64,000 nucleotides of DNA from Geodermatophilus obscurus (GTDB taxonomy: Bacteria; Actinomycetota; Actinomycetes; Mycobacteriales; Geodermatophilaceae), in the NCBI RefSeq assembly GCF_900115395.1, contig NZ_FOWE01000011.1, positions 124,001-188,000 on the forward strand, written 5' to 3'. This document shows positions 2,068 to 57,600 of this stretch, one piece after another. Each line of letters begins with the position of its first letter. The first letter of the stretch is position 1. A program made the translations under genes and the position numbers. The notes beneath the pieces are model-generated. The model ran no database searches. It was not told the DNA's origin and worked only from the letters and a program-made list of their open reading frames with translations.

Positions 2068-2784
2068 TCAGGCGGTGAGCGCACTCCGGTCGTCCACCGG
2101 CACCAACCGCCAGGGGACGCCCGGGACGTCGGCGGCCGGGCCGGCGGCCACCTCCGCCGGGGACACCAGCGCGCCGACCAGCTCCCGCGGCGAGGTGGAG
2201 AGGACCACCCGGTCCTCTCCGTTGAGGAGCAGGAACGGCGCGCTCCTGTCGACCCGGCGCAGCAGGTGCGACTCGAACCGGCGCACCGAGACGTCGGCAC
2301 CGGCCACGCCGACGAACTCCCCGTCGACGACGACCGGCTCGGTGAGCGTGAGGAGGTACCGCCCGGTGCCGTGGACGTCGACGTAGGGGCCGACGACGTG
2401 CCGCCGTCCGGTCCGCCGGGGGACGTCGAACCACTCGGCCGCCGTGTAGTCGTAGTAGCCGAGGCTGGTGGGCCGCAGGTCGGGCTCCAGGGTGCGCAGC
2501 CGGCCGCCGTCGGGGTCGACCTGCCACCACTCCAGGCGCAGCGGCAGGCCGCGCTCGGGACGCGGCGCCACGACCAGCCCGAGCCCGACGGCGAGCTGAC
2601 CGGGCCGGTGCAGCAGGTCGCGGACGTCGTCGCCGAGGACCGGCCGTCCGGCCCGCAGCCCGTCGCGCGCCGTGGGCGCCAGCGCCGCGTCGCGCACCTC
2701 GGCGACGGTGGCGAACACCCCCTCCACGACCTCGGCCACCGTCCCGGTCACGGCGGCGGGGGCCCCGGGACGACCGGAGGTCAC
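2068..2784 (-). CDS. free-standing Cache (PDC-like) sensor-domain protein
   Basis: 238 aa. The middle carries hallmarks of a dCache/PDC fold: YYDYTAAEWFDVP (residues about 106-118), VVGPYVDVHGTGRYLLTLTE and then DGEFVGVAGADVSV, including the Asp of the GVxGxD element that usually contacts a ligand amino group. There is no signal peptide, membrane segment or output domain, so the protein is probably cytosolic, which is unusual for Cache modules. Its ATG overlaps the stop of the upstream GntR gene by 4 bp. I infer that it serves as a ligand-sensing partner for that regulator or for the pathway enzymes. Confidence 0.75.
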   Translation of the reverse strand: MTSGRPGAPAAVTGTVAEVVEGVFATVAEVRDAALAPTARDGLRAGRPVLGDDVRDLLHRPGQLAVGLGLVVAPRPERGLPLRLEWWQVDPDGGRLRTLEPDLRPTSLGYYDYTAAEWFDVPRRTGRRHVVGPYVDVHGTGRYLLTLTEPVVVDGEFVGVAGADVSVRRFESHLLRRVDRSAPFLLLNGEDRVVLSTSPRELVGALVSPAEVAAGPAADVPGVPWRLVPVDDRSALTA

Positions 2785-3590
2785 GAGACCTCCCGGCGGG
2801 CGACGGCCTCCCCGCCCGCGCGCAGCCTCAGTTCGATCGACCAGACCGTACGGGCCTCGATGTGCTCCTCGGTGAGCGTCCGGGCCGCGGCCGGGTCCCG
2901 GACCTCGATCGCCTCCACCACCGCCCGGTGGGCGGCGACGATGCGCTCGAGCAGGGCGGGCGCGTGGGCCGGGGGCCAGGGCAGCTGCCCGAGCTCCAGG
3001 TGCAGGTCCATCTCCTGCATGGTCAGCCGCACCGACTGCGCGCAGGCGGCCAGCTCGACGTAGTAGCGGCCCTCCGCCCGGCGCTGGCCGGTCACCGAGT
3101 CGGCCCGCGCCAACCGGTCGACGATGTCGCGCAGCCGGGCGATCTCGACGCGGGACGCCCGCGAGGCGGCCAGCCGGGCCGCCGCCGAGGCGACCGCACC
3201 GTGGGCGTCGCCGAGCTCGCGCAGGTCGGTGGTGGCCAGCTCGGCCAGCCGGGCGTCGGCCAACTCGCCGAGGACGTCGTCGCGCGCCTGCACGAAGCTG
3301 CCGCCGCCGCGGCCACGGCGCGTCTCGACCAGCCCGAGCCCGCGCAGCTCGGCCAGCGCCTCCCGCAGCGTCATCGTCGAGACGTTGAGCATGGTGGCCA
3401 GCTCGGTCTCGGCCGGGAGCTGCTCGCCGTCACCGAGCAGGCCCAGCGCGATGGCACTGCCCACCCGGCGCACCACCGCCTCGCTGCGGAGGGCCCCGTC
3501 GTCGAGGGGGGCGAAGACCGCGCGCCGGGCGTCCCCGCTGAGCAGTTGCACGCTCGCCTCCTGGAACCGGTCGATGACCCAGTGTCGCAC
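2781..3590 (-). CDS. FadR-type GntR family transcriptional regulator
   Basis: 269 aa. After an unusually long N-terminal lead of about 35 residues comes the winged helix (residues about 38-100) with LPAETELATMLNVSTMTLRE and the wing LVETRRGRGGGSFVQ. The C-terminal half is an all-helical FCD domain, with the conserved arginine segment RLRDIVDRLA and late histidines in AAHRAVVEAIE and TEEHIEA that usually bind a metal. FCD domains commonly sense small carboxylates. It is divergent from the Fe-S/FAD operon and probably controls both arms through the palindrome at 3607-3637. Confidence 0.88.
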   Translation of the reverse strand: MRHWVIDRFQEASVQLLSGDARRAVFAPLDDGALRSEAVVRRVGSAIALGLLGDGEQLPAETELATMLNVSTMTLREALAELRGLGLVETRRGRGGGSFVQARDDVLGELADARLAELATTDLRELGDAHGAVASAAARLAASRASRVEIARLRDIVDRLARADSVTGQRRAEGRYYVELAACAQSVRLTMQEMDLHLELGQLPWPPAHAPALLERIVAAHRAVVEAIEVRDPAAARTLTEEHIEARTVWSIELRLRAGGEAVARREVS

Positions 3591-3606
3591 CGCAGGCGGC
3601 CGCGCT

Positions 3607-3637
3607 TAACCATTGATTCCATAGGTTTCAGTGGTTA
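3607..3637. promoter_or_regulatory. candidate GntR operator, imperfect palindrome
   Basis: Arms TAACCATTGA (3607-3616) and TCAGTGGTTA (3628-3637) are inverted repeats with one mismatch, separated by 11 bp. This is the most AT-rich stretch of the island and lies midway between the divergent starts at 3590 and 3680. It overlaps the candidate plus-strand promoter. Its central ATAGGTTTC recurs, inverted, at the permease promoter, suggesting a shared regulator. No binding data exist here; it is a sequence-based prediction. Confidence 0.6.
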
Positions 3638-3641
3638 GCGT
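3613..3641 (+). promoter_or_regulatory. candidate promoter for the Fe-S / FAD / ALDH operon
   Basis: TTGATT (3613-3618), a 17-bp spacer, and TAGCGT (3636-3641) form a plausible -35/-10 pair, ending 38 bp before the GTG start at 3680. It is almost wholly contained in the palindromic operator, so a bound repressor would occlude it. Confidence 0.4.
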
Positions 3642-3679
3642 GACCCGCACCTCAGCCGCCGTGGAACGAGGAGCACGCA

Positions 3680-5182
3680 GTGACCCAGGTCCAACCCGAA
3701 CGGACGCCGGGGGCCCCGCCCCTCGTCGATGCCCTCGCGGTGCCGTTCACCCCGGGCGCCCCGTCGAACCCACCGGAGCTCGCCGCCTACCCCGAGACGC
3801 TCGCCGGCCCGGTCCCCGCACCGCGCCAGGACCCGAGGACGGCGGCCTTCGTCGAGCAGTGGCGCAACGCCTCGTACAACTGCTACTCCTCGGGCCACAA
3901 GTTCTGCCGCGAGGTCTGCCCGGTCACCCAGGTCGAGCGCAACGAGTCCTGGACCCCCACGGCGTTCCACGCCAACGTCGTGGCGATGGAGCGCGGCGAG
4001 CTCGACGTCGAGGACGTCGCCGCCGACTACGTCAACTGCACCCAGTGCGGCGCGTGCGAGCTGCGCTGCCCCAACACGCTGTTCACCGGCGACTTCTACC
4101 GGTTCCGCACCCGCACGGTCGACGTCGTCAAGGCAGTGCGGTCGCTGGCCGTGGAGAGCGGCGTGCACCAGCCCAACTGGCAGGTGTGGAACGAGCGCAC
4201 CGACCTGCGCACCCACGAGCCGGTGCTCGGCGAGACCCCGGTGAGCCAGGAGCGGGTGCGGGACTGGGCCGAGGGCCTGGACATCCCGGTCGGCGGGGAG
4301 ACCGTCCTGTTCGTCGACTGCGAGGCCGCCTTCTACCGGACGTCGGTGCCGCGCGCGGTGGCGCAGGTGCTGCAGATGGCCGGCTACGAGTTCGGCCTCA
4401 TGGGCGAGCAGTGGTGCTGCGGCGGCCCGGCCGCCGAGATGGGCTACGCCGAGCAGGCGCAGCGCTTCGCGCGGCACAACCTCGACAACTGGCGGGCGAC
4501 GGGCACGAAGCGGCTGCTGGTCCTCGACCCGCACGACTACATCAGCTTCACCGAGGACTACCCGCGCTACTTCGGCGCGGAGTTCGACATCGAGGTCGTG
4601 CTCGTCATCGAGGTGTTCGCCCAGCTGCTGCGCGAGGGGCGGCTGACCCCGTCGGTGCCGGTCGACCGGGCGATCACCTACCACGACCCGTGCCGGCTCA
4701 ACAAGCGCAAGGGGATCTGGGCCGAGCCCCGGGACCTGCTGCGCGCCATCCCCGGGCTGCGGTTCGAGGACGTCGACCGGGTGACGCAGTGGTCCTACTG
4801 CTCCGGCGGTGGCGGCGGCCTGCCGATCGAGAAGCCCGAGCTGACCCGGAAGATCAGCGCGCTGCGGCTGGAGCGGGCCGCCGAGCTCGACGTCGACACC
4901 CTGGTCAGCGCCTGCCCCTGGTCGGAGCGCCCGCTGTCGGAGGCCGGCGACGCGGAGGACATCGACGTCGTCGACCTGCACGAGCTGTTCGCCCAGTCGC
5001 TCGGCATCACCGTCGGCGGCTCCCGCGGTGACGTCGGCGACCGCCGGCTGGCCCAGGAGCGCAGCGGCGTCCCCGGCCGGGCCCGGCGGGCGCACGGCAG
5101 CTCGCGCGGCGGCTGCGGCGGAGGCGGCTGTGGCGGCGGGTGCGGGAACGGTTCCGGCGGCTGCGGGTGCGGGGGGCACTGA
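3680..5182 (+). CDS. (Fe-S)-binding CCG-domain oxidoreductase subunit
   Basis: 500 aa. N-terminal cysteine clusters NCYSSGHKFCREVCP and NCTQCGACELRCP (residues about 70-130) should bind two [4Fe-4S] clusters. Two CCG-like modules of the GlcF/LutA/HdrB type follow: QWCCGGPAAEMGY near residue 250, and DPCRLNKRKG with a degenerate SYCSGGGGGLP near residue 375. The last 25 residues are an odd Gly/Cys tail. It likely passes electrons from the adjacent FAD oxidase to the quinone pool. The start is a GTG with GGAACGAGGAG upstream. Substrate unknown. Confidence 0.85.
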   Translation: MTQVQPERTPGAPPLVDALAVPFTPGAPSNPPELAAYPETLAGPVPAPRQDPRTAAFVEQWRNASYNCYSSGHKFCREVCPVTQVERNESWTPTAFHANVVAMERGELDVEDVAADYVNCTQCGACELRCPNTLFTGDFYRFRTRTVDVVKAVRSLAVESGVHQPNWQVWNERTDLRTHEPVLGETPVSQERVRDWAEGLDIPVGGETVLFVDCEAAFYRTSVPRAVAQVLQMAGYEFGLMGEQWCCGGPAAEMGYAEQAQRFARHNLDNWRATGTKRLLVLDPHDYISFTEDYPRYFGAEFDIEVVLVIEVFAQLLREGRLTPSVPVDRAITYHDPCRLNKRKGIWAEPRDLLRAIPGLRFEDVDRVTQWSYCSGGGGGLPIEKPELTRKISALRLERAAELDVDTLVSACPWSERPLSEAGDAEDIDVVDLHELFAQSLGITVGGSRGDVGDRRLAQERSGVPGRARRAHGSSRGGCGGGGCGGGCGNGSGGCGCGGH

Positions 5183-50454: not shown

Positions 50455-50646
50455 GGGAGTCCTCCCCCTGGACGGTGCGGCGAGACTGCACCCGGCGTGC
50501 CCGGTGGGGGACGACGACGCGCCGGAATGGGACAGGAGTGACGACAGCGCGGCCCCTCGCCGCGTCGCACCTAGGTCACAGCTCGGCGTCAGGCGAACGG
50601 CGATGCAACAGGCCTGGGTTACCGTCACGCCCCACTGCCCGCGTTC

Positions 50647-50660
50647 GTGTCGCGCGACAC
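50647..50660. promoter_or_regulatory. perfect 14-bp palindrome upstream of livH
   Basis: GTGTCGC/GCGACAC forms a perfect dyad 55 bp before the livH start, in the 260-bp gap between the GNAT gene and the liv operon. It may be an operator; no regulator can be assigned. I see no other clear element in this gap. Confidence 0.35.
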
Positions 50661-50714
50661 CATCGTGCCGATCGACACCACGCCCCACAGTTCTGCCACG
50701 ACCAGGGAGGTTGT

Positions 50715-52046
50715 GTGACCCACCCGTCAGCCACCGCCGGGCCACCCGGGCGGTCCCGGAGCGCGATCCGCCCGGGCCCCGGGACCGCCCACAGGGTGAT
50801 GCTGCGGCTCCTGCTGGTGCTCGTCGCCGCCACCGGCCTCGCCGTGCTGGTCCCCGGCATCGCGAGCGCCGAGGGCGAGCAGGTCATCGGCACGCTGCAG
50901 ACCAGCCGCTCGGGCCCCATCGAGGGCGTCGAGGTCACCGTCACGACAGCCGCCGGGGACGAGGTCGACAGCGTCGCGAGCGACGAGGACGGCCGCTGGG
51001 CCGTCGAGCTGCCGGGCCCCGGCGACTACGTCGTCACCATCGACGACGGCGACCTCCCCGAGGGGGTCGAGCTGGCGGGCGCGGACAACCGTGCGGTCAC
51101 CGTGGCCGAGGGGCGCCGTGAGCCGGTCATTATCGGCCTCGAGGACGGCAGCCGGGGCGGCGGCGGTGGCACGGTGCGCGCCGTCCAACTGCTCGTCGAC
51201 GGCATCCGCTTCGGCCTGCTCATCGCGATGGCCGCCGTCGGCCTGTCGCTGATCTTCGGCACCACCGGGCTGACCAACTTCGCCCACGGTGAGCTGGTCA
51301 CCATCGGCGCCATCGTCGCCTGGTACGTCAACGTCTCGGGCGGCGTCCCGCTGATCCCCGCGACGATCATCGCGATGATCGCAGGAGCGGGCATCGGCGC
51401 GCTCAACGAACTGGCGCTGTGGCGCCCGCTGCGCCGGCGCGGCACCGGGCTCATCGCGGCCCTGGTCGTCTCCATCGGCCTGTCGCTGCTGCTGCGCTAC
51501 CTCATCCAGATCGTGTACGGCGGCCGGTCCAGCCCGTACCAGGTGGCCACCGGCCGCGCCGTCGACTACGGCGCCTTCACCCTCACCAACCGGGCACTCG
51601 TCTCGATCGTCGTCTCGGTCGTCGTCCTCGTGCTCGTGGCCCTGATGCTGCAGCGCACCAAGATCGGCAAGGCCATGCGGGCCGTCTCCGACAACCGCGA
51701 CCTCGCGGCGTCGTCGGGGATCGACGTCAACCGCGTGATCCTCGTCGTCTGGATGATGGGCGGCGCCCTCGCCGCGCTGGGTGGGGTCCTGCTCGGGCTC
51801 TCCGACCAGGTCCAGTGGGACATGGGCTTCCGCCTGCTGCTGCTCATGTTCGCCGGCGTCACCCTCGGTGGCCTCGGCACCGCCTACGGCGCCCTGGTGG
51901 GCAGCCTCATCGTGGGCGTGTTCGTGCAGATGTCGACCCTCGTCATCCCGAATGACGTGAAGTACGTCGGAGGGCTGCTGCTCTTGATCGTCATCCTCGT
52001 CATCCGGCCCCAGGGCATCCTGGGCAGCCGCGCCCGGATCGGCTGA
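50715..52046 (+). CDS. livH: branched-chain amino acid ABC permease LivH with an extra secreted N-terminal domain
   Basis: 443 aa from GTG 50715 with GGGAGG six bases upstream. Residues 30-52 form a signal-like helix ending GIASA. Residues about 53-145 are a beta-rich domain (QVIGTLQTSRSGPIEGVEV, DEDGRWAVELPGPGDYVVTI) resembling CarboxypepD_reg/transthyretin-like folds. A Gly linker leads to the LivH core (GLSLIFGTTGLTNFAHGELV, then MRAVSDNRDLAASSGID, ending VIRPQGILGSR). The core is normal length; the extension is the oddity. First gene of livH-livM-livG-livF. Confidence 0.92.
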   Translation: MTHPSATAGPPGRSRSAIRPGPGTAHRVMLRLLLVLVAATGLAVLVPGIASAEGEQVIGTLQTSRSGPIEGVEVTVTTAAGDEVDSVASDEDGRWAVELPGPGDYVVTIDDGDLPEGVELAGADNRAVTVAEGRREPVIIGLEDGSRGGGGGTVRAVQLLVDGIRFGLLIAMAAVGLSLIFGTTGLTNFAHGELVTIGAIVAWYVNVSGGVPLIPATIIAMIAGAGIGALNELALWRPLRRRGTGLIAALVVSIGLSLLLRYLIQIVYGGRSSPYQVATGRAVDYGAFTLTNRALVSIVVSVVVLVLVALMLQRTKIGKAMRAVSDNRDLAASSGIDVNRVILVVWMMGGALAALGGVLLGLSDQVQWDMGFRLLLLMFAGVTLGGLGTAYGALVGSLIVGVFVQMSTLVIPNDVKYVGGLLLLIVILVIRPQGILGSRARIG

Positions 52047-52049
52047 GCC

Positions 52050-53048
52050 ATGGGTGACCTCCTCGACGCCGTCGCCGTCGCGCTGAAGGCCGGCCTGGGC
52101 TTCCAGGCGATCTTCTTCGCGCTGCTGGCCATCGGCATCAACGTGCAGTTCGGCTACGCCGGGCTGCTCAACTTCGGCCAGATCGCCTTCGCCCTGCTCG
52201 GCGGCTTCGGCATCGCCATCTCGGTGAGCCAGTGGGGCCTGCCGTTCTGGGTGGGCGTGATCGTCGGTCTCGTGGCCGCCGTCGTGCTCGCCCTCCTCCT
52301 GGGCCTGCCGACCCTGCGGCTGCGGGCCGACTACCTGGCCATCGCCACGATCGCCACCGCCGAGGGTCTGCGGCTGCTGTTCCGGTCGGTGTCGGCCACG
52401 CCGGTCACCAACGGCACCCGCGGCCTGTCCGCCTTCAACGGCGACTTCATCGCCCTCGCCCCGTGGGCGACCAACGCGCGTTACCGGCTCCTCGGCACCA
52501 GCTGGTCCGGCGGCGAGCTGTGGGTCGCCGTCGTCGGCTGGGTGGTCGTCGTCCTGGCCTGCCTGCTGGTCTTCGCCCTCATGCGCAGCCCGTGGGGCCG
52601 CGTGCTCAAGTCCATCCGCGAGGACGAGGACGCCGTCCGCTCGCTGGGCAAGAACGTCTACGTCTACAAGATGCAGGCGCTGGTGCTCGGCGGGATCCTC
52701 GGCGCGCTCGGCGGGATGGTCTACGCCGTCGGCACCGGCTCGGCGGTCCCGGACCAGTACCAGAACGCCAACACGTTCCTCGCCTACGCGGCCCTGATCC
52801 TCGGTGGCGCTGCCCGCGTGCTCGGGCCGGTCATCGGTTCGATCGTCCTGCTGTTCATCCTGCAGTTCGCCGACACCGGCCTGCGGCTCCTGATCGACAA
52901 CGGGATCATCCCCGAGGGGCTGCTGTCGGCCACCGACGTGGCACAGATCCGCTTCGTGCTCGTGGGTATCGGGCTCATGCTGTTGTTGGTCTTCCGGCCA
53001 CAGGGCATCTTCGGTGACCGACGAGAGGTGATGCTCGATGCGCGCTGA
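52050..53048 (+). CDS. livM: branched-chain amino acid ABC permease LivM
   Basis: 332 aa, about nine membrane segments. FGYAGLLNFGQIAFALLGGF and LPTLRLRADYLAIATIATAE are LivM signatures, SIREDEDAVRSLGKNVYVYK is the coupling loop, and VFRPQGIFGDRREV is the end. It pairs with LivH to form the translocation channel. Starts 3 bp after livH and overlaps livG by 11 bp. Confidence 0.94.
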   Translation: MGDLLDAVAVALKAGLGFQAIFFALLAIGINVQFGYAGLLNFGQIAFALLGGFGIAISVSQWGLPFWVGVIVGLVAAVVLALLLGLPTLRLRADYLAIATIATAEGLRLLFRSVSATPVTNGTRGLSAFNGDFIALAPWATNARYRLLGTSWSGGELWVAVVGWVVVVLACLLVFALMRSPWGRVLKSIREDEDAVRSLGKNVYVYKMQALVLGGILGALGGMVYAVGTGSAVPDQYQNANTFLAYAALILGGAARVLGPVIGSIVLLFILQFADTGLRLLIDNGIIPEGLLSATDVAQIRFVLVGIGLMLLLVFRPQGIFGDRREVMLDAR

Positions 53049-54135
53049 CCCCAACCCCCACGGCGCCTCGGCGTCGGGTGCGTCCGGCGCTTCCGGTGCC
53101 TCGGCGTCCGGTGCCTCGGCGTCCGGCGCCTCGGCGTCCGGCGCGTCCCTGGACAAGGGCGCGACCTGGCAGCGGGGCGACACCCCGCAGCGGCTGGCGC
53201 AGGCCGCGCTGCGCGACCTCCCCTGGGAGGTCGGCGTCGCCAAGCCCGACCCCGCGATCGTCGTCGACGGCGTGACCCGGACCTTCGGCGGGCTGACGGC
53301 GGTCGCCGTCGACCACCTCGAGGTCCAGCGCGGCGGCATCACCGGCCTCATCGGGCCCAACGGCGCCGGCAAGACGACGCTGTTCAACCTGCTGACCGGC
53401 TTCGACCAGCCCAACACCGGCACCTGGTCGTTCGACGGCCGGTCGCTGGGCAAGCTGGCCCCGCACCAGGTCGCCCGGCTCGGCGTCGTCCGGACCTTCC
53501 AGCTGACCAAGGCGCTGTCCCGCCTCACCGTGCTGCAGAACATGCTGCTCGGGGCCCAGGGGCAGCGCGGGGAGAGCTTCCTGCGGGCCCTGGTCCCCGG
53601 GACCTGGCGCGCCCAGGAGAAGGCGAACACCGAGAAGGCGATGGACCTGCTGCGGCGGTTCAAGCTCGACGCCAAGAAGGACGAGTTCGCCGGCACCCTC
53701 TCCGGTGGTCAGCGCAAGCTGCTGGAGATGGCGCGGGCGCTGATGAGCGACCCGAAGGTCGTCATGCTCGACGAGCCGATGGCCGGGGTGAACCCGGCGC
53801 TCACCCAGAGCCTGCTGGGGCACGTCAAGGACCTCCGCGAGGAGGGCATGACGGTCATCTTCGTCGAGCACGACATGGACGTCGTCCGCGACATCAGCGA
53901 CTGGGTCGTCGTCATGGCCGCCGGCAGGGTCATCGCCGAGGGGCCACCGGAGTCGATCAGCCAGAACCAGGCCGTCGTCGACGCCTACCTCGGCGCGCAC
54001 CACGACGCGCCCCTCACCGTCGAGGAGGAGGACCAGGTGCTCGCCGAGGCCGAGCAGGCCATCGCGCGCGAGGAGCACGGCGGCGGCGAGGTCCTCGGCT
54101 CCACCTCCACCACCACCGGGAAGGGCGAGCGATGA
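53038..54135 (+). CDS. livG: branched-chain amino acid ABC ATPase LivG, repeat-bearing N-terminus
   Basis: 365 aa, longer than the usual 250-290. Residues 9-37 are a Gly-Ala-Ser repeat encoded by 15-bp DNA units, then a linker to about residue 77. Next come the ATPase core with Walker A LIGPNGAGKTTLFNLLTGF, signature LSGGQRKLLEMARALM and Walker B VVMLDEPMAGVNP. The C-tail is acidic. It energises LivHM with LivF. The ATG at 53038 overlaps livM; GTG starts after the repeat are possible but have no obvious ribosome site. Confidence 0.92.
   Translation: MRADPNPHGASASGASGASGASASGASASGASASGASLDKGATWQRGDTPQRLAQAALRDLPWEVGVAKPDPAIVVDGVTRTFGGLTAVAVDHLEVQRGGITGLIGPNGAGKTTLFNLLTGFDQPNTGTWSFDGRSLGKLAPHQVARLGVVRTFQLTKALSRLTVLQNMLLGAQGQRGESFLRALVPGTWRAQEKANTEKAMDLLRRFKLDAKKDEFAGTLSGGQRKLLEMARALMSDPKVVMLDEPMAGVNPALTQSLLGHVKDLREEGMTVIFVEHDMDVVRDISDWVVVMAAGRVIAEGPPESISQNQAVVDAYLGAHHDAPLTVEEEDQVLAEAEQAIAREEHGGGEVLGSTSTTTGKGER
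53064..53147 (+). repeat. 15-bp-unit tandem repeat inside livG
   Basis: Units of the form GCCTCGGCGTCCGGT/C, with shorter 9-bp variants, recur through 53064-53147, all in frame and coding Gly-Ala-Ser(-Ala-Ser). This pattern can gain or lose units by slippage without a frameshift. Confidence 0.8.
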
Positions 54136-54986
54136 GCGAGCCACTGTTCGAGGTCGACGAGTCCGGCGAGGACCGCACCCGCGCCGACACGGTCGTCGAC
54201 ACGGCCACCCTCTCCCCCGCGGAGAAGGCGGCCACCCGCGAGGAGCACGTGCGCCTCGCCGAGGGCGCCCTGGTGCGCGCCGACGACCTCGTCGCCGGCT
54301 ACGTGCCGGGCGTCAACATCCTGCGCGGCTGCGACTTCTACCTGCAGGACGGCGAGCTCGTCGGGATCATCGGCCCCAACGGGGCCGGCAAGTCCACGCT
54401 GCTCAAGACGCTGTTCGGGCTCATCCCCGTGCGCTCGGGCACCGTGACGCTGCGCGGCGAGGAGATCACCTCCGCGCCGGCCCACCGCCTGGTGTCGATG
54501 GGCGTCGGCTACGTCCCGCAGAACAACAACGTGTTCCCCTCGCTCACCATCGAGGAGAACATGCAGATGGGCGTGTACCTGCGGCCGAAGACGTTCAAGG
54601 AGCGCTTCGACTACGTCATCGACCTGTTCCCCCTGCTCGGGGAGCGGCGCAAGGGCAAGGCCGGGTCGCTCTCCGGCGGTGAGCGGCAGATGGTGGCCAT
54701 GGGCCGCGCCCTGATGATGGACCCCTCGGTGCTGCTGCTCGACGAGCCGTCGGCGGGCCTCTCCCCCGCCTACCAGGACGAGGTGTTCATCCGCTGCCGG
54801 CGGATCAACGCCACGGGGGTCTCGATCATCATGGTCGAGCAGAACGCGCGGCGGTGCCTGCAGATCTGCGACCGGGGCTACGTGCTCGACCAGGGGCGCA
54901 ACGCCTACACCGACACCGGCCGGTCGCTCATGACCGACCCCAAGGTGATCGAGCTCTACCTGGGGACCCTCGCCAAGGCGCAGTGA
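54132..54986 (+). CDS. livF: branched-chain amino acid ABC ATPase LivF
   Basis: 284 aa; ATG overlaps livG stop (ATGA). An acidic lead of about 45 residues, longer than normal, precedes Walker A IGPNGAGKSTLLKTLFG, the Q-loop region YVPQNNNVFPSLTIEENM, signature SLSGGERQMVAMGRALM and Walker B LLLDEPSAGLSP. The switch-histidine position reads IMVEQNARR, as in LivF proteins. Last gene of the operon, followed by a strong hairpin. Confidence 0.95.
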   Translation: MSEPLFEVDESGEDRTRADTVVDTATLSPAEKAATREEHVRLAEGALVRADDLVAGYVPGVNILRGCDFYLQDGELVGIIGPNGAGKSTLLKTLFGLIPVRSGTVTLRGEEITSAPAHRLVSMGVGYVPQNNNVFPSLTIEENMQMGVYLRPKTFKERFDYVIDLFPLLGERRKGKAGSLSGGERQMVAMGRALMMDPSVLLLDEPSAGLSPAYQDEVFIRCRRINATGVSIIMVEQNARRCLQICDRGYVLDQGRNAYTDTGRSLMTDPKVIELYLGTLAKAQ

Positions 54987-55053: not shown

Positions 55054-55140
55054 TGGAGCGCATCCGCGCTACGGCGGCCCGACGGCGGCAGGGCGCTGTC
55101 ACCGGCACGGACAGCGCGGGGACCCTGCGCCGGGGCGATG

Positions 55141-55198
55141 GCCCGCGACGGCCCGCGAGGGCCCGCGACGGCCCGCGACGGCCCGCGACGGCCCGGTG
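55141..55198. repeat. 10-bp tandem repeat
   Basis: GCCCGCGACG is repeated five times in tandem from 55141 to 55190 (one unit has AGG for ACG), with a partial sixth unit. Non-coding, between the two convergent liv transcripts. Confidence 0.8.
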
Positions 55199-55235
55199 GC
55201 GCGGTCGTCAGACCGGCTCCTGCGGTCGTGGGCGA

Positions 55236-55286
55236 GCACGAGTGGGCGGGCCCCCGGGCCGGCACGAGTGGGCGGCACCCGGGCCG
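55236..55286. repeat. 25/26-bp direct duplication
   Basis: Two adjacent copies begin GCACGAGTGGGCGG and end CCCGGGCCG (55236-55261 and 55262-55286), differing by a short indel. Non-coding. Confidence 0.75.
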
Positions 55287-55413
55287 GCAGGGAGTCCCTC
55301 GCCGCCGTACGGACCCGCAGGTCCCTCGACAGGCCGCAGCCGCCGCCCAGGACGCGCCCCCGGATGACCGCCACGCGCCGGCCAGCGGCCCGGGACGGCC
55401 ACCGCGCACGACA

Positions 55414-55447
55414 GCGGCCCGGCACCCCCTGAGGGGTACCGGGCCGC
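55414..55447 (-). terminator. hairpin after the liv substrate-binding gene
   Basis: A 15-bp stem with one mismatch (55414-55428 with 55433-55447) and a 4-nt loop, about 50 bp beyond the stop of the minus-strand binding-protein gene. Confidence 0.75.
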
Positions 55448-55499: not shown

Positions 55500-56837
55500 T
55501 CAGCGCTGCGGGCCGATGCCCTGGTCGTTGAGGCCCTGCAGGATCCGGGAGGACTCCTCGAAGCCGATCACGATGATCGCGTCGGGGTTGAAGTCCACCA
55601 TCCGCTGCACCTCGGCGTCGAAGTTCGCCGCCTGCGGGTCGTAGGTGATCGACTGGATGTCGTCCTCCGCCAGACCCGCGCTGACCAGGTTGTTCAGGGT
55701 GTTCTCCGCCAGCCCGGTGCCGTAGGGGTCGTTGAGCGCCAGGATCCCCACGGTGTTGTTGCCGTCGGCGATGATCAGGTCCGCGAGGGCGCGGGCCTGC
55801 AGCGTGTCCGGCGGGGCGGTGCGGAAGTACAGCCCGTTGTCGTTGTAGGTCGTGAACTGGTCGGACGTGTTCGCCGGCGAGAACTGCATGACACCGGCGC
55901 CGGTGATGGCGTCGATGACCGTCAGGCTCACGCCGGAGGACGCCGCACCGATGATCGCGTTCACGCCCGACTGCAGGAGCCGGTCGACGGTCTGGGTGGC
56001 GGTGTCGGTCGACGCGTCACCGGAGTCACCCTCGACCAGCTGCACCGGCGCACCGAGGACGCCACCGGCGGCGTTGATGTCGTTGAGCGCGAGCTTGGCG
56101 CCGGCGACCTCGGGCGGGCCGAGGAAGGCCAGGTTGCCGGTCAGCGGCAGCAGCGTGCCGATGATCAGCGGCCCGCCGGTGGCGCCGGCCGGTGCGTAGG
56201 CCGGGCCCTCGTCGGTGGAGGCGTTGGCCTCGTCACCGGCGATGACGAACTCGGTGGCGCCGTCGTCGAGGGCGTTGTCGTCACCGAACTGCAGCAGGCC
56301 GAAGCTCGCCGCGGCGGGCTCGCCGGCGTCGGTGAAGGCCAGCGGGCCGGAGATGCCGTCGTAGTCGACGTTCCCGCCGCTGTTGATGATCTCGAGGCAG
56401 GCGGCGAAGTCCTCGCACTTGTCGCCACCGGCGGTGATGCCGTTGACGTACGCCTTGAAGGTGTTGGCGTCGTTGGTACCCGCCGCCTGGGCGGCCAGCG
56501 CGGTGACGATCACCGCGTCGTAGGTCTCGCCCGCGTAGTTGTAGTCCTGCAGGTTCGGGTCGACCTCGAGCAGGCGGTCGGTGAAGTCCGAGCCCAGCTC
56601 GGTGAGCGGGGTGGTGCCCTTCATGCCGGCCAGGGCGCCCTGCTCGGAGAAGTCCTCACCGAGGGCGTTGCCCATGTTGCCGTCGGTGCCGTAGATGTTG
56701 ACCTGCTTCTCACCGCTAGCCGCGGCTTCGCCGCTCGAGCCGCCGCCGCCCTCGTCGTCGCTGCCACCGCAGGCGGTGAGGGCGACCAGGGCAGCGGACG
56801 TGACGGCGATGCTGCGGGCGTAAGTACGCGTGCGCAT
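55500..56837 (-). CDS. ABC substrate-binding lipoprotein, LivJ/LivK family, with circularly permuted domain order
   Basis: 445 aa. Signal peptide and lipobox LTAC (Cys23), then a Gly/Ser linker. Residues 44-190 (KQVNIYGTDGNMGNALGEDF, YAGETYDAVIVTALAAQAAG, GISGPLAFTDAGEPAA) match the C-terminal part of LivK. Residues 221-445 (GPLIIGTLLPLTGNLAFLGP, GAASSGVSLTVIDAITGAGV, DPYGTGLAENTLNNLV, DAIIVIGFEESSRILQGLND) match its N-terminal part. The order is thus swapped, joined by an acidic Ala/Gly linker (about 191-220), and it stops where the normal sequence would continue into KQV. All elements are present once. It likely delivers a branched-chain or other amino acid to LivHMGF. Confidence 0.9.
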   Translation of the reverse strand: MRTRTYARSIAVTSAALVALTACGGSDDEGGGGSSGEAAASGEKQVNIYGTDGNMGNALGEDFSEQGALAGMKGTTPLTELGSDFTDRLLEVDPNLQDYNYAGETYDAVIVTALAAQAAGTNDANTFKAYVNGITAGGDKCEDFAACLEIINSGGNVDYDGISGPLAFTDAGEPAAASFGLLQFGDDNALDDGATEFVIAGDEANASTDEGPAYAPAGATGGPLIIGTLLPLTGNLAFLGPPEVAGAKLALNDINAAGGVLGAPVQLVEGDSGDASTDTATQTVDRLLQSGVNAIIGAASSGVSLTVIDAITGAGVMQFSPANTSDQFTTYNDNGLYFRTAPPDTLQARALADLIIADGNNTVGILALNDPYGTGLAENTLNNLVSAGLAEDDIQSITYDPQAANFDAEVQRMVDFNPDAIIVIGFEESSRILQGLNDQGIGPQR

Positions 56838-56997: not shown

Positions 56998-57600
56998 TCA
57001 GGGGGTCGCGCCGCCCGGCGGTGTCGCCTCGGGGCGGAGGATGCGCTCGGCCAGCACCTTCATCGAGGTGCGCTCGTTCATGGCGTTCCGCTGGATCCAG
57101 CGGAACGCCTCGGCCTCCGTCATCCCCTGGTCGGCCATGAGCCGGCCCTTGGCCTGCTCGACGACCTTGCGGGTCTCCAGCCGCTCCTCGAGCGTGCGCA
57201 CCTCGCCGTCCAGGGCGGCGATCTCGGTGAACCGGGCCCGGGCGACCTCGATGGCCGGCACCAGGTCGTTCTTGGAGAACGGCTTGACCAGGTAGGCCAT
57301 GGCACCGGCGTCCCGGGCCCGCTCCACCAGCTCCCGCTGGCTGAAGGCGGTCAGCACGATGACCGGCGCGATCCGGGCCGAGGCGATCTGCTCGGCCGCG
57401 GCCAGCCCGTCGAGGACCGGCATCTGGATGTCGAGGATGACCAGGTCCGGCGTCAGCTCCCGCGCCCGGTCGACGGCGGTCTGGCCGTCACCGGCCTCGG
57501 CGACGACCACGTACCCCTCCTCCTCGAGCATCTCCTTGAGATCCAGGCGGATGAGGGCCTCGTCCTCGGCGATGAGGACCCGGGTCGGCTCGCTGCTCAC
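56998..57600 (-). CDS. ANTAR-domain response regulator (PdtaR-like)
   Basis: 200 aa from GTG 57600. Receiver domain at about 6-120 with acidic LIAEDEALIRLDL, phospho-Asp in LVILDIQMPVLDG and Lys in AYLVKPFSKND. A coiled linker and the RNA-binding ANTAR domain (RKVVEQAKGRLMADQGMTEA, then EAFRWIQRNAM) follow. When phosphorylated such proteins bind paired RNA hairpins and prevent termination. Its position beside pyk, tesB and a tRNA resembles other actinobacteria. I did not find a convincing ANTAR target hairpin nearby. Confidence 0.93.
   Translation of the reverse strand: MSSEPTRVLIAEDEALIRLDLKEMLEEEGYVVVAEAGDGQTAVDRARELTPDLVILDIQMPVLDGLAAAEQIASARIAPVIVLTAFSQRELVERARDAGAMAYLVKPFSKNDLVPAIEVARARFTEIAALDGEVRTLEERLETRKVVEQAKGRLMADQGMTEAEAFRWIQRNAMNERTSMKVLAERILRPEATPPGGATP

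Follow-up and report, generated by a model that had tools for sequence, protein, structure and literature searches.

One naturally permuted binding lipoprotein of type I has been described, the treponemal Tp0684/MglB-2 (TpMglB-2), for which the designation "Type Ic / Cluster Bc" has been proposed (PMC4990184). According to excerpts of that paper, TpMglB-2 belongs to the glucose/galactose family, and its chain is cut in the N-lobe, with the first three N-lobe strands shifted to the C-terminus and a fourth crossover; the moved part shares only 13% identity with the protein of E. coli, and membrane tethering was considered by the authors as a possible reason for the permutation (PMC4990184). Other natural permutations, those of saposin/swaposin and of DNA methyltransferases, are explained by duplication and trimming in the portion consulted of PMC3320104. 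Our literature searches, in which subscription journals were thinly covered, turned up no description of a Liv-type binding protein with permuted segments.

Here we analyzed a stretch of 64,000 nucleotides of Geodermatophilus obscurus DNA (the window), which encodes a lipoprotein of 445 amino acids close to a set of liv transport genes. This protein is a Liv-type (Peripla_BP_6) binding protein that is circularly permuted, with its C-part placed before its N-part. In our main reading, to which we assign a probability of about 0.83 on the basis of sequence comparisons, it would be a tethered and working Liv-type binding protein that operates with LivHMGF, and its segment order would have arisen from a linear ancestor independently at least three times.

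A Liv-type binding protein with swapped segments

The motif LTAC (residues 20 to 23), which we take to be a lipobox, is followed in the 445-residue protein by the C-part, a join and the N-part, each segment being present once (Table 1). Landmarks in the chain are KQVNIYG at residues 44 to 50, GGPLIIG at residues 221 to 227 and GIGPQR at residues 440 to 445. The original prediction, which was that a Liv-type receptor had become circularly permuted in this gene, was borne out by the gain in Pfam match upon swapping and by the reverse-order alignment to linear relatives described below, and the boundaries that it had drawn between the segments were correct within a few residues.

Table 1. Coordinates and strands of features in the window
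Feature	Position	Strand	Remark
ORF of the livH permease, whose actual start is probably more internal; CarboxypepD_reg-like domain before membrane part	50475..52046	+	LivH by Pfam
livM permease	52050..53048	+	named by eye
livG ATPase, N-terminus Gly-Ala-Ser-rich	53038..54135	+	named by eye
Short tandem repeats coding for the Gly-Ala-Ser-rich N-terminus of LivG	53061..53148		
livF ATPase, convergent with binding-protein gene	54132..54986	+	named by eye
Tandem-repeat arrays (10-, 25/26- and 29-base units) between the convergent livF and binding-protein genes	55135..55426		
Binding-protein ORF	55500..56837	-	445 aa
Ancestral N-part, now last (residues 222-445), terminating in GIGPQR	55503..56174	-	
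Join, old C-tail to old N-terminus (~residues 197-221)	56175..56249	-	
Ancestral C-part, now first (~residues 44-196), beginning KQVNIYGTDGN	56250..56708	-	conserved Asp52
Tether linker, Gly/Ser/Asp-rich (residues 24-43)	56709..56768	-	
Signal peptide and lipobox (residues 1-23, LTAC)	56769..56837	-	Cys23 probably lipidated
Response-regulator-like gene directly upstream of binding-protein gene	56998..57600	-	named by eye

In its native order, the protein matched the Pfam profile Peripla_BP_6 only with residues 226 to 443, which covered profile positions 4 to 217 of 343 at 121.7 bits, compared to a gathering score of 31.7. Swapping the segments back in silico extended the match to profile positions 4 to 310 and raised the score to 131.7 bits; the native chain is thus not co-linear with the whole domain. 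The ANF_receptor profile gave 83.7 bits in native order (positions 6 to 201, the better of two stretches) and 90.5 bits after swapping (6 to 350 of 353). As a control, the linear proteins L059 and L225 matched Peripla_BP_6 at profile positions 1 to 315 and 1 to 312, respectively. We conclude that the window protein is a permuted derivative of Peripla_BP_6 proteins and no ordinary member of that family. In all three permuted proteins run on Pfam (the window protein, L057 and L120), Peripla_BP_6 matched one part only, and such a permutation is therefore readily missed.

Swapping gained less in the PDB search than in Pfam, yielding longer matches with nearly flat scores. The top match in native order, 3ipc (protein residues 225 to 441 against chain residues 4 to 218, 67.2 bits), lengthened to chain residues 4 to 295 with no change in score; 4gnr rose from 65.2 to 68.7 bits, with the match reaching residue 301, and 4n0q dropped from 66 to 63.5 bits. 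The strongest support for the permutation came from 22 linear loci (L059 to L080), to which both segments align in the opposite order, with identities of 56 to 64% for the N-part and 41 to 48% for the C-part.

By alignment, the cut maps close to residue 220 of 3ipc, a position that would belong to the distal lobe by the lobe boundaries of LivJ. The alignment to solved relatives, taken together with these boundaries, suggests that the new chain ends lie in the distal lobe.

The neighborhood of the gene comprises livH, identified by Pfam, as well as livM, livG and livF, recognized by eye and from conserved neighbors. The CarboxypepD_reg-like domain in the livH ORF scored 32.9 bits at a cut-off of 32.3, and many of the linear and permuted binding proteins, though not every one, had a similar extension detected next to them. 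A scan for promoters and terminators around the binding-protein gene found none. The genome from which the window was taken contains a single gene of this kind plus two weak relatives.

Distribution, gene neighborhood and cut sites

Each species was represented by a single genome in a first scan, and of the best 80 of 121 loci, 58 had the permuted order of the window protein and 22 were linear. The permuted loci carried the names of Geodermatophilaceae in 56 cases, the other two being a locus with an unconfirmed Bacillus label (L003) and one from an actinomycete MAG (L057); the linear loci were from Williamsia, Planotetraspora, Microbispora, Actinoplanes, one Streptomyces and MAGs. Within the family of the window, a near full-length permuted match was present, by row count, in 92 of 112 genomes representing all 12 genus codes, and the remaining genomes contained fragments (3 genomes), distant relatives only (13) or no match (4). 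The search for the same order in other genomes, which the original prediction had put forward, thus found it in abundance; that prediction dealt with one gene, which is indeed permuted, and the order proved to be family-wide, with similar events apparent in other lineages. The species and family scans overlap (L001/L084 and L074/L240, for example, are apparently one record each) and so does the f3 sample introduced below, so that their counts are not independent.

We refer to the cut of the window protein as type A and to a shifted cut as type B, with f and g labels denoting family and genus codes. Among the matches listed, near full-length type A proteins were found in 11 of 394 class genomes, 16 of 245 genomes of family f29, about 120 of 200 genomes of f3 and 10 of 85 genomes of f37, the last with two further partial matches, of which one was located where a contig ends. 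Type B proteins, with L057 as the query, were found among the matches listed in 6 of 396 phylum genomes. First-pass scoring in these class, phylum, f29, f37 and f3 searches considered few candidates per genome. Linear f29 relatives that were listed reached up to ∼74% identity per segment. Six genomes of the window's family contained a second permuted copy with 64 to 69% identity to the window protein (e.g., L130 to L132); of these, L130 and L131 had no liv genes over 13 to 14 kb, and the L132 locus was short. A search of a plasmid collection returned two matching records.

The arrangement SBP+ livF- livG- livM- livH- was observed in 57/57 type A, 52/55 linear and 5/6 type B rows, counting rows with all four liv genes and two linear loci twice because of their two copies each, and it was present at 12/12 permuted f29 loci. 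Not included in these counts were 14 type A, 21 linear and 1 type B rows in which at least one of the four liv genes was missing, in many cases on a short locus; livG precedes livF in four of these linear rows, and livH precedes the binding protein in the type B row, L128. Other gene arrangements were seen in L129 (type B) and in L136 to L138 (linear). The latter represent three genomes of the window's family that additionally encode a distant linear relative, the gene order there being livH-livM-livG-livF-SBP with all genes on the same strand. The synteny shared by linear and permuted genes argues that, in most cases, the gene that changed was an orthologue occupying a constant position. No liv operon was found beside the permuted f3 genes at any of 15 loci (∼10 kb read each), with one livF-like gene in L243, and the linear f3 copies L236, L238, L241 and L247 face liv genes. 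The permuted f3 loci lie among L228 to L246, and their stem in the tree is long (0.57).

In the type B protein L057, the cut is located ∼22 to 24 residues further on, and the chain terminates in ...YGCDGNMGNALGTNFDAGK. Cuts of types A and B flank a conserved Asp-Gly loop, one on each side, and all cuts examined fall inside ∼22 residues. In each permuted lineage, the residues before and after the cut are those of its linear relatives. In f29 the flanks are YFVDGN-ADYS or near variants and mostly GDG-(L/F)-(V/I)G-LLP; in Geodermatophilaceae they are YG-DGN and PL-IG or PL-VG-TLLP without GDG, like in Williamsia; and in f27/f37, with the exception of L208, the flank is LYLVDGN. The internal join consists of the old C-tail, a stretch of roughly 10 to 20 unassigned residues, and the old domain start. 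A tail of the form EFV-AG or similar is common to Geodermatophilaceae and f3, which suggests one event for both. The linker between the lipobox and the first domain had a median length of 20 residues across 108 permuted rows, compared with 32 residues across 88 linear rows, a difference from which we draw no conclusion since the rows are related.

Function, route and number of origins

Residues S301, T324, Y372, D52 and A322 align with positions that contact the ligand in LIVBP. In a set of 101 type A, 7 type B and 90 linear rows, at least two row pairs of which are apparently one record twice, S301 and T324 were each conserved in 100, 7 and 90 rows, respectively, Y372 and D52 were kept in all rows, and A322 was kept in fewer (83, 7 and 84). 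The residues S301, T324, Y372 and D52 of the putative amino-acid ligand site are thus shared with the linear relatives. Comparison with three close species yielded dN/dS values of 0.20 to 0.27 overall, with 0.10 to 0.15 for the N-part, 0.23 to 0.36 for the C-part and 0.15 to 0.43 for the join. Near-invariant ligand residues and low dN/dS suggest that the protein should be a working receptor. The gene product would be a lipid-tethered binding protein for an amino-acid-like ligand, with the convergently encoded LivHMGF as its partner. Both of its parts would fold as one normal two-lobed protein in which the join bridges the old ends, and the new ends would be located in the distal lobe, adjoining the loop with the conserved Asp. 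With such ends, the lipid tether would hold the distal lobe and not the first lobe, and the closed form would presumably still dock on LivHM.

Whether the new tether position matters can be viewed in two ways. As a tentative and on balance doubtful proposal, the permutation may be both convergent and adaptive: selection in four or five actinobacterial lineages might have moved the tether to the same distal-lobe edge by the ligand acid, changing closure or docking, with tandem duplicates at the liv locus as raw material. It is somewhat easier to believe, at nearly even odds, that the cut site is only a tolerant loop and that the permutation is neutral, with no effect of the new tether position. 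Neutrality is consistent with the equal conservation of ligand residues in linear and permuted rows and with the occurrence of both forms in the same family and, for g46, g58 and g116, even under the same genus code, whereas the recurrence near one site and the abundance in two families give some indication that drift is not the whole explanation.

For the repeated permutation of a working receptor, the likely route would be that the gene was duplicated in tandem, that the copies fused in frame and that the outer halves were then lost. Duplication and trimming had been part of the original prediction and is plausible as the origin of the permuted gene: permutation by duplication is described in the consulted portion of PMC3320104, and tandem copies at the locus in relatives fit this description. 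Tandem linear copies are present at the liv locus in L146, L147, L209, L210 and L211, and in L208 a permuted gene (positions 1095 to 2486) is followed by a linear gene (2514 to 3992), both facing the liv operon. L208 originates from a draft genome that is 85% complete and 4% contaminated, its permuted copy has a long branch (1.2, tree 2), and a response-regulator-like gene precedes it, as in the window. The duplication route predicts partly duplicated intermediates, and their absence counts against it, since among 219 ORFs with both parts (a set in which some loci are represented twice) none was half-duplicated or fused or contained a repeated stretch of either part. This absence would fit fission with refusion in the other order, or cut-and-paste of a segment, routes that are both described in the same portion of PMC3320104; with tandem gene copies existing at this same locus, however, we consider either of them unlikely.

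Trees were built on proteins un-rotated to N-part plus C-part, using 88 of 156 rotated sequences (tree 1) or 92 of 198 (tree 2); near-identical rows, duplicate loci, L176 to L207 and all columns with an occupancy of ≤80% were excluded. Both trees were largely concordant, with the permuted proteins in distinct groups between which linear orthologues were placed. The 9 permuted f29 rows of tree 2 (100/93) were nested in linear f29 within a 16-row clade (100/100), with linear L225 (98/88) and then L226 (95/88) as their nearest relatives. Permuted f27/f37 proteins (97/92) fell inside a 50-row clade (100/100), the rest of which is linear except for f29. Geodermatophilaceae (100/98) and f3 (100/100) joined weakly (92/41), with linear f2/Williamsia as their sister (100/98). 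Type B proteins of f69/f110 (100/96) lay outside this Geodermatophilaceae/f3/f2 group, and those of f56 were separate. On tree 2 the label "linear" requires five changes, and the starred branches force four.

A single origin of all permuted forms was rejected by the AU test on tree 1, with groups chosen post hoc (P = 1.6e-32). The same held for all type A proteins as one clade (P = 5.3e-59, tree 1) and for the unions of f29 with f27/f37 (P = 5.6e-4), f29 with Geodermatophilaceae/f3 (P = 2e-175) and f27/f37 with Geodermatophilaceae/f3 (P = 7.2e-5). Because the groups were named only after the trees had been inspected, the weak values for type B carry little (P = 0.025 for all type B as one clade in tree 2; P = 0.027 for type B of f69/f110 with Geodermatophilaceae/f3).

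Single-part trees, built by a quick method on 218 columns of the N-part and 146 of the C-part, were less resolved than the joint tree. Both placed permuted f29 with linear f29 (99 and 77, respectively) and Geodermatophilaceae plus f3 with f2 (98 and 81), an agreement that speaks against chimeras; a chimeric origin of the two parts thus found no support in these trees, though at their lower resolution. Permuted Geodermatophilaceae/f3 rows did not form a single group in the N-part tree, nor did permuted f27/f37 in the C-part tree, and the starred branches force three changes for the N-part and two for the C-part. Given the strong separation in the joint tree and the weaker single-part trees, we hold three origins to be well supported and five to be possible. 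We infer at least three independent permutations, in Geodermatophilaceae plus f3, in f27/f37 and in f29, with four or five possible origins if the type B groups are counted; the linear order would be ancestral.

A single permutation that spread horizontally and was followed by gene conversion by resident linear copies, or by reversals to the linear order, appears improbable. The coexistence of permuted and linear copies, in L208 and in at least 10 f3 genomes, makes conversion possible, and the confinement of every examined cut to ∼22 residues as well as the fewer changes forced by the single-part trees would fit one event. Nevertheless, the N-part and C-part trees each place f29 and Geodermatophilaceae/f3 with their own linear relatives, the AU tests reject unions of type A groups, joins and end residues vary by lineage, and each reversal to the linear order would amount to another permutation. 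An artefact of assembly or annotation, or a decaying gene, can be dismissed, given the permuted order in 58/80 loci and 92/112 family genomes from dozens of assemblies, the intact reading frames in translated loci and the dN/dS of 0.20 to 0.27.

Comparison with known systems

Orthologues in a linear and two permuted orders, mostly at one conserved locus, represent a natural experiment on chain rewiring. The availability of close linear and permuted orthologues makes the route, polarity and effect of a natural permutation directly testable, which to our knowledge is seldom possible.

Linear Liv-type binding proteins (PF13458, Peripla_BP_6; PDB 1z15, 1usg, 3ipc and 4gnr) resemble the window protein in that both segments are homologous, the ligand residues are kept and a lipoprotein is encoded next to LivHMGF; the window protein differs in its swapped segments and in its ends and lipid tether, which would be placed on the distal lobe. 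Saposin/swaposin and the DNA methyltransferases, as covered by the consulted portion of PMC3320104, are permutations in other folds, whereas in the Liv-type case orthologues from mostly one locus exhibit three orders (linear, A and B). TpMglB-2 and the window protein are both naturally permuted type I lipoprotein binding proteins that differ in cut and in family. In place of the N-lobe cut with three moved strands that the excerpts describe for Type Ic, the window protein is cut near residue 220 of 3ipc, and its best Pfam match (Peripla_BP_6) and best PDB match (amino-acid type) point away from the MglB-type sugar family. The excerpts of PMC4990184 do not mention recurrence for TpMglB-2, in contrast to the Liv-type proteins, in which permutation appears to be recurrent and bears on the idea, raised in those excerpts, that permutation may serve the membrane tethering of a binding protein.
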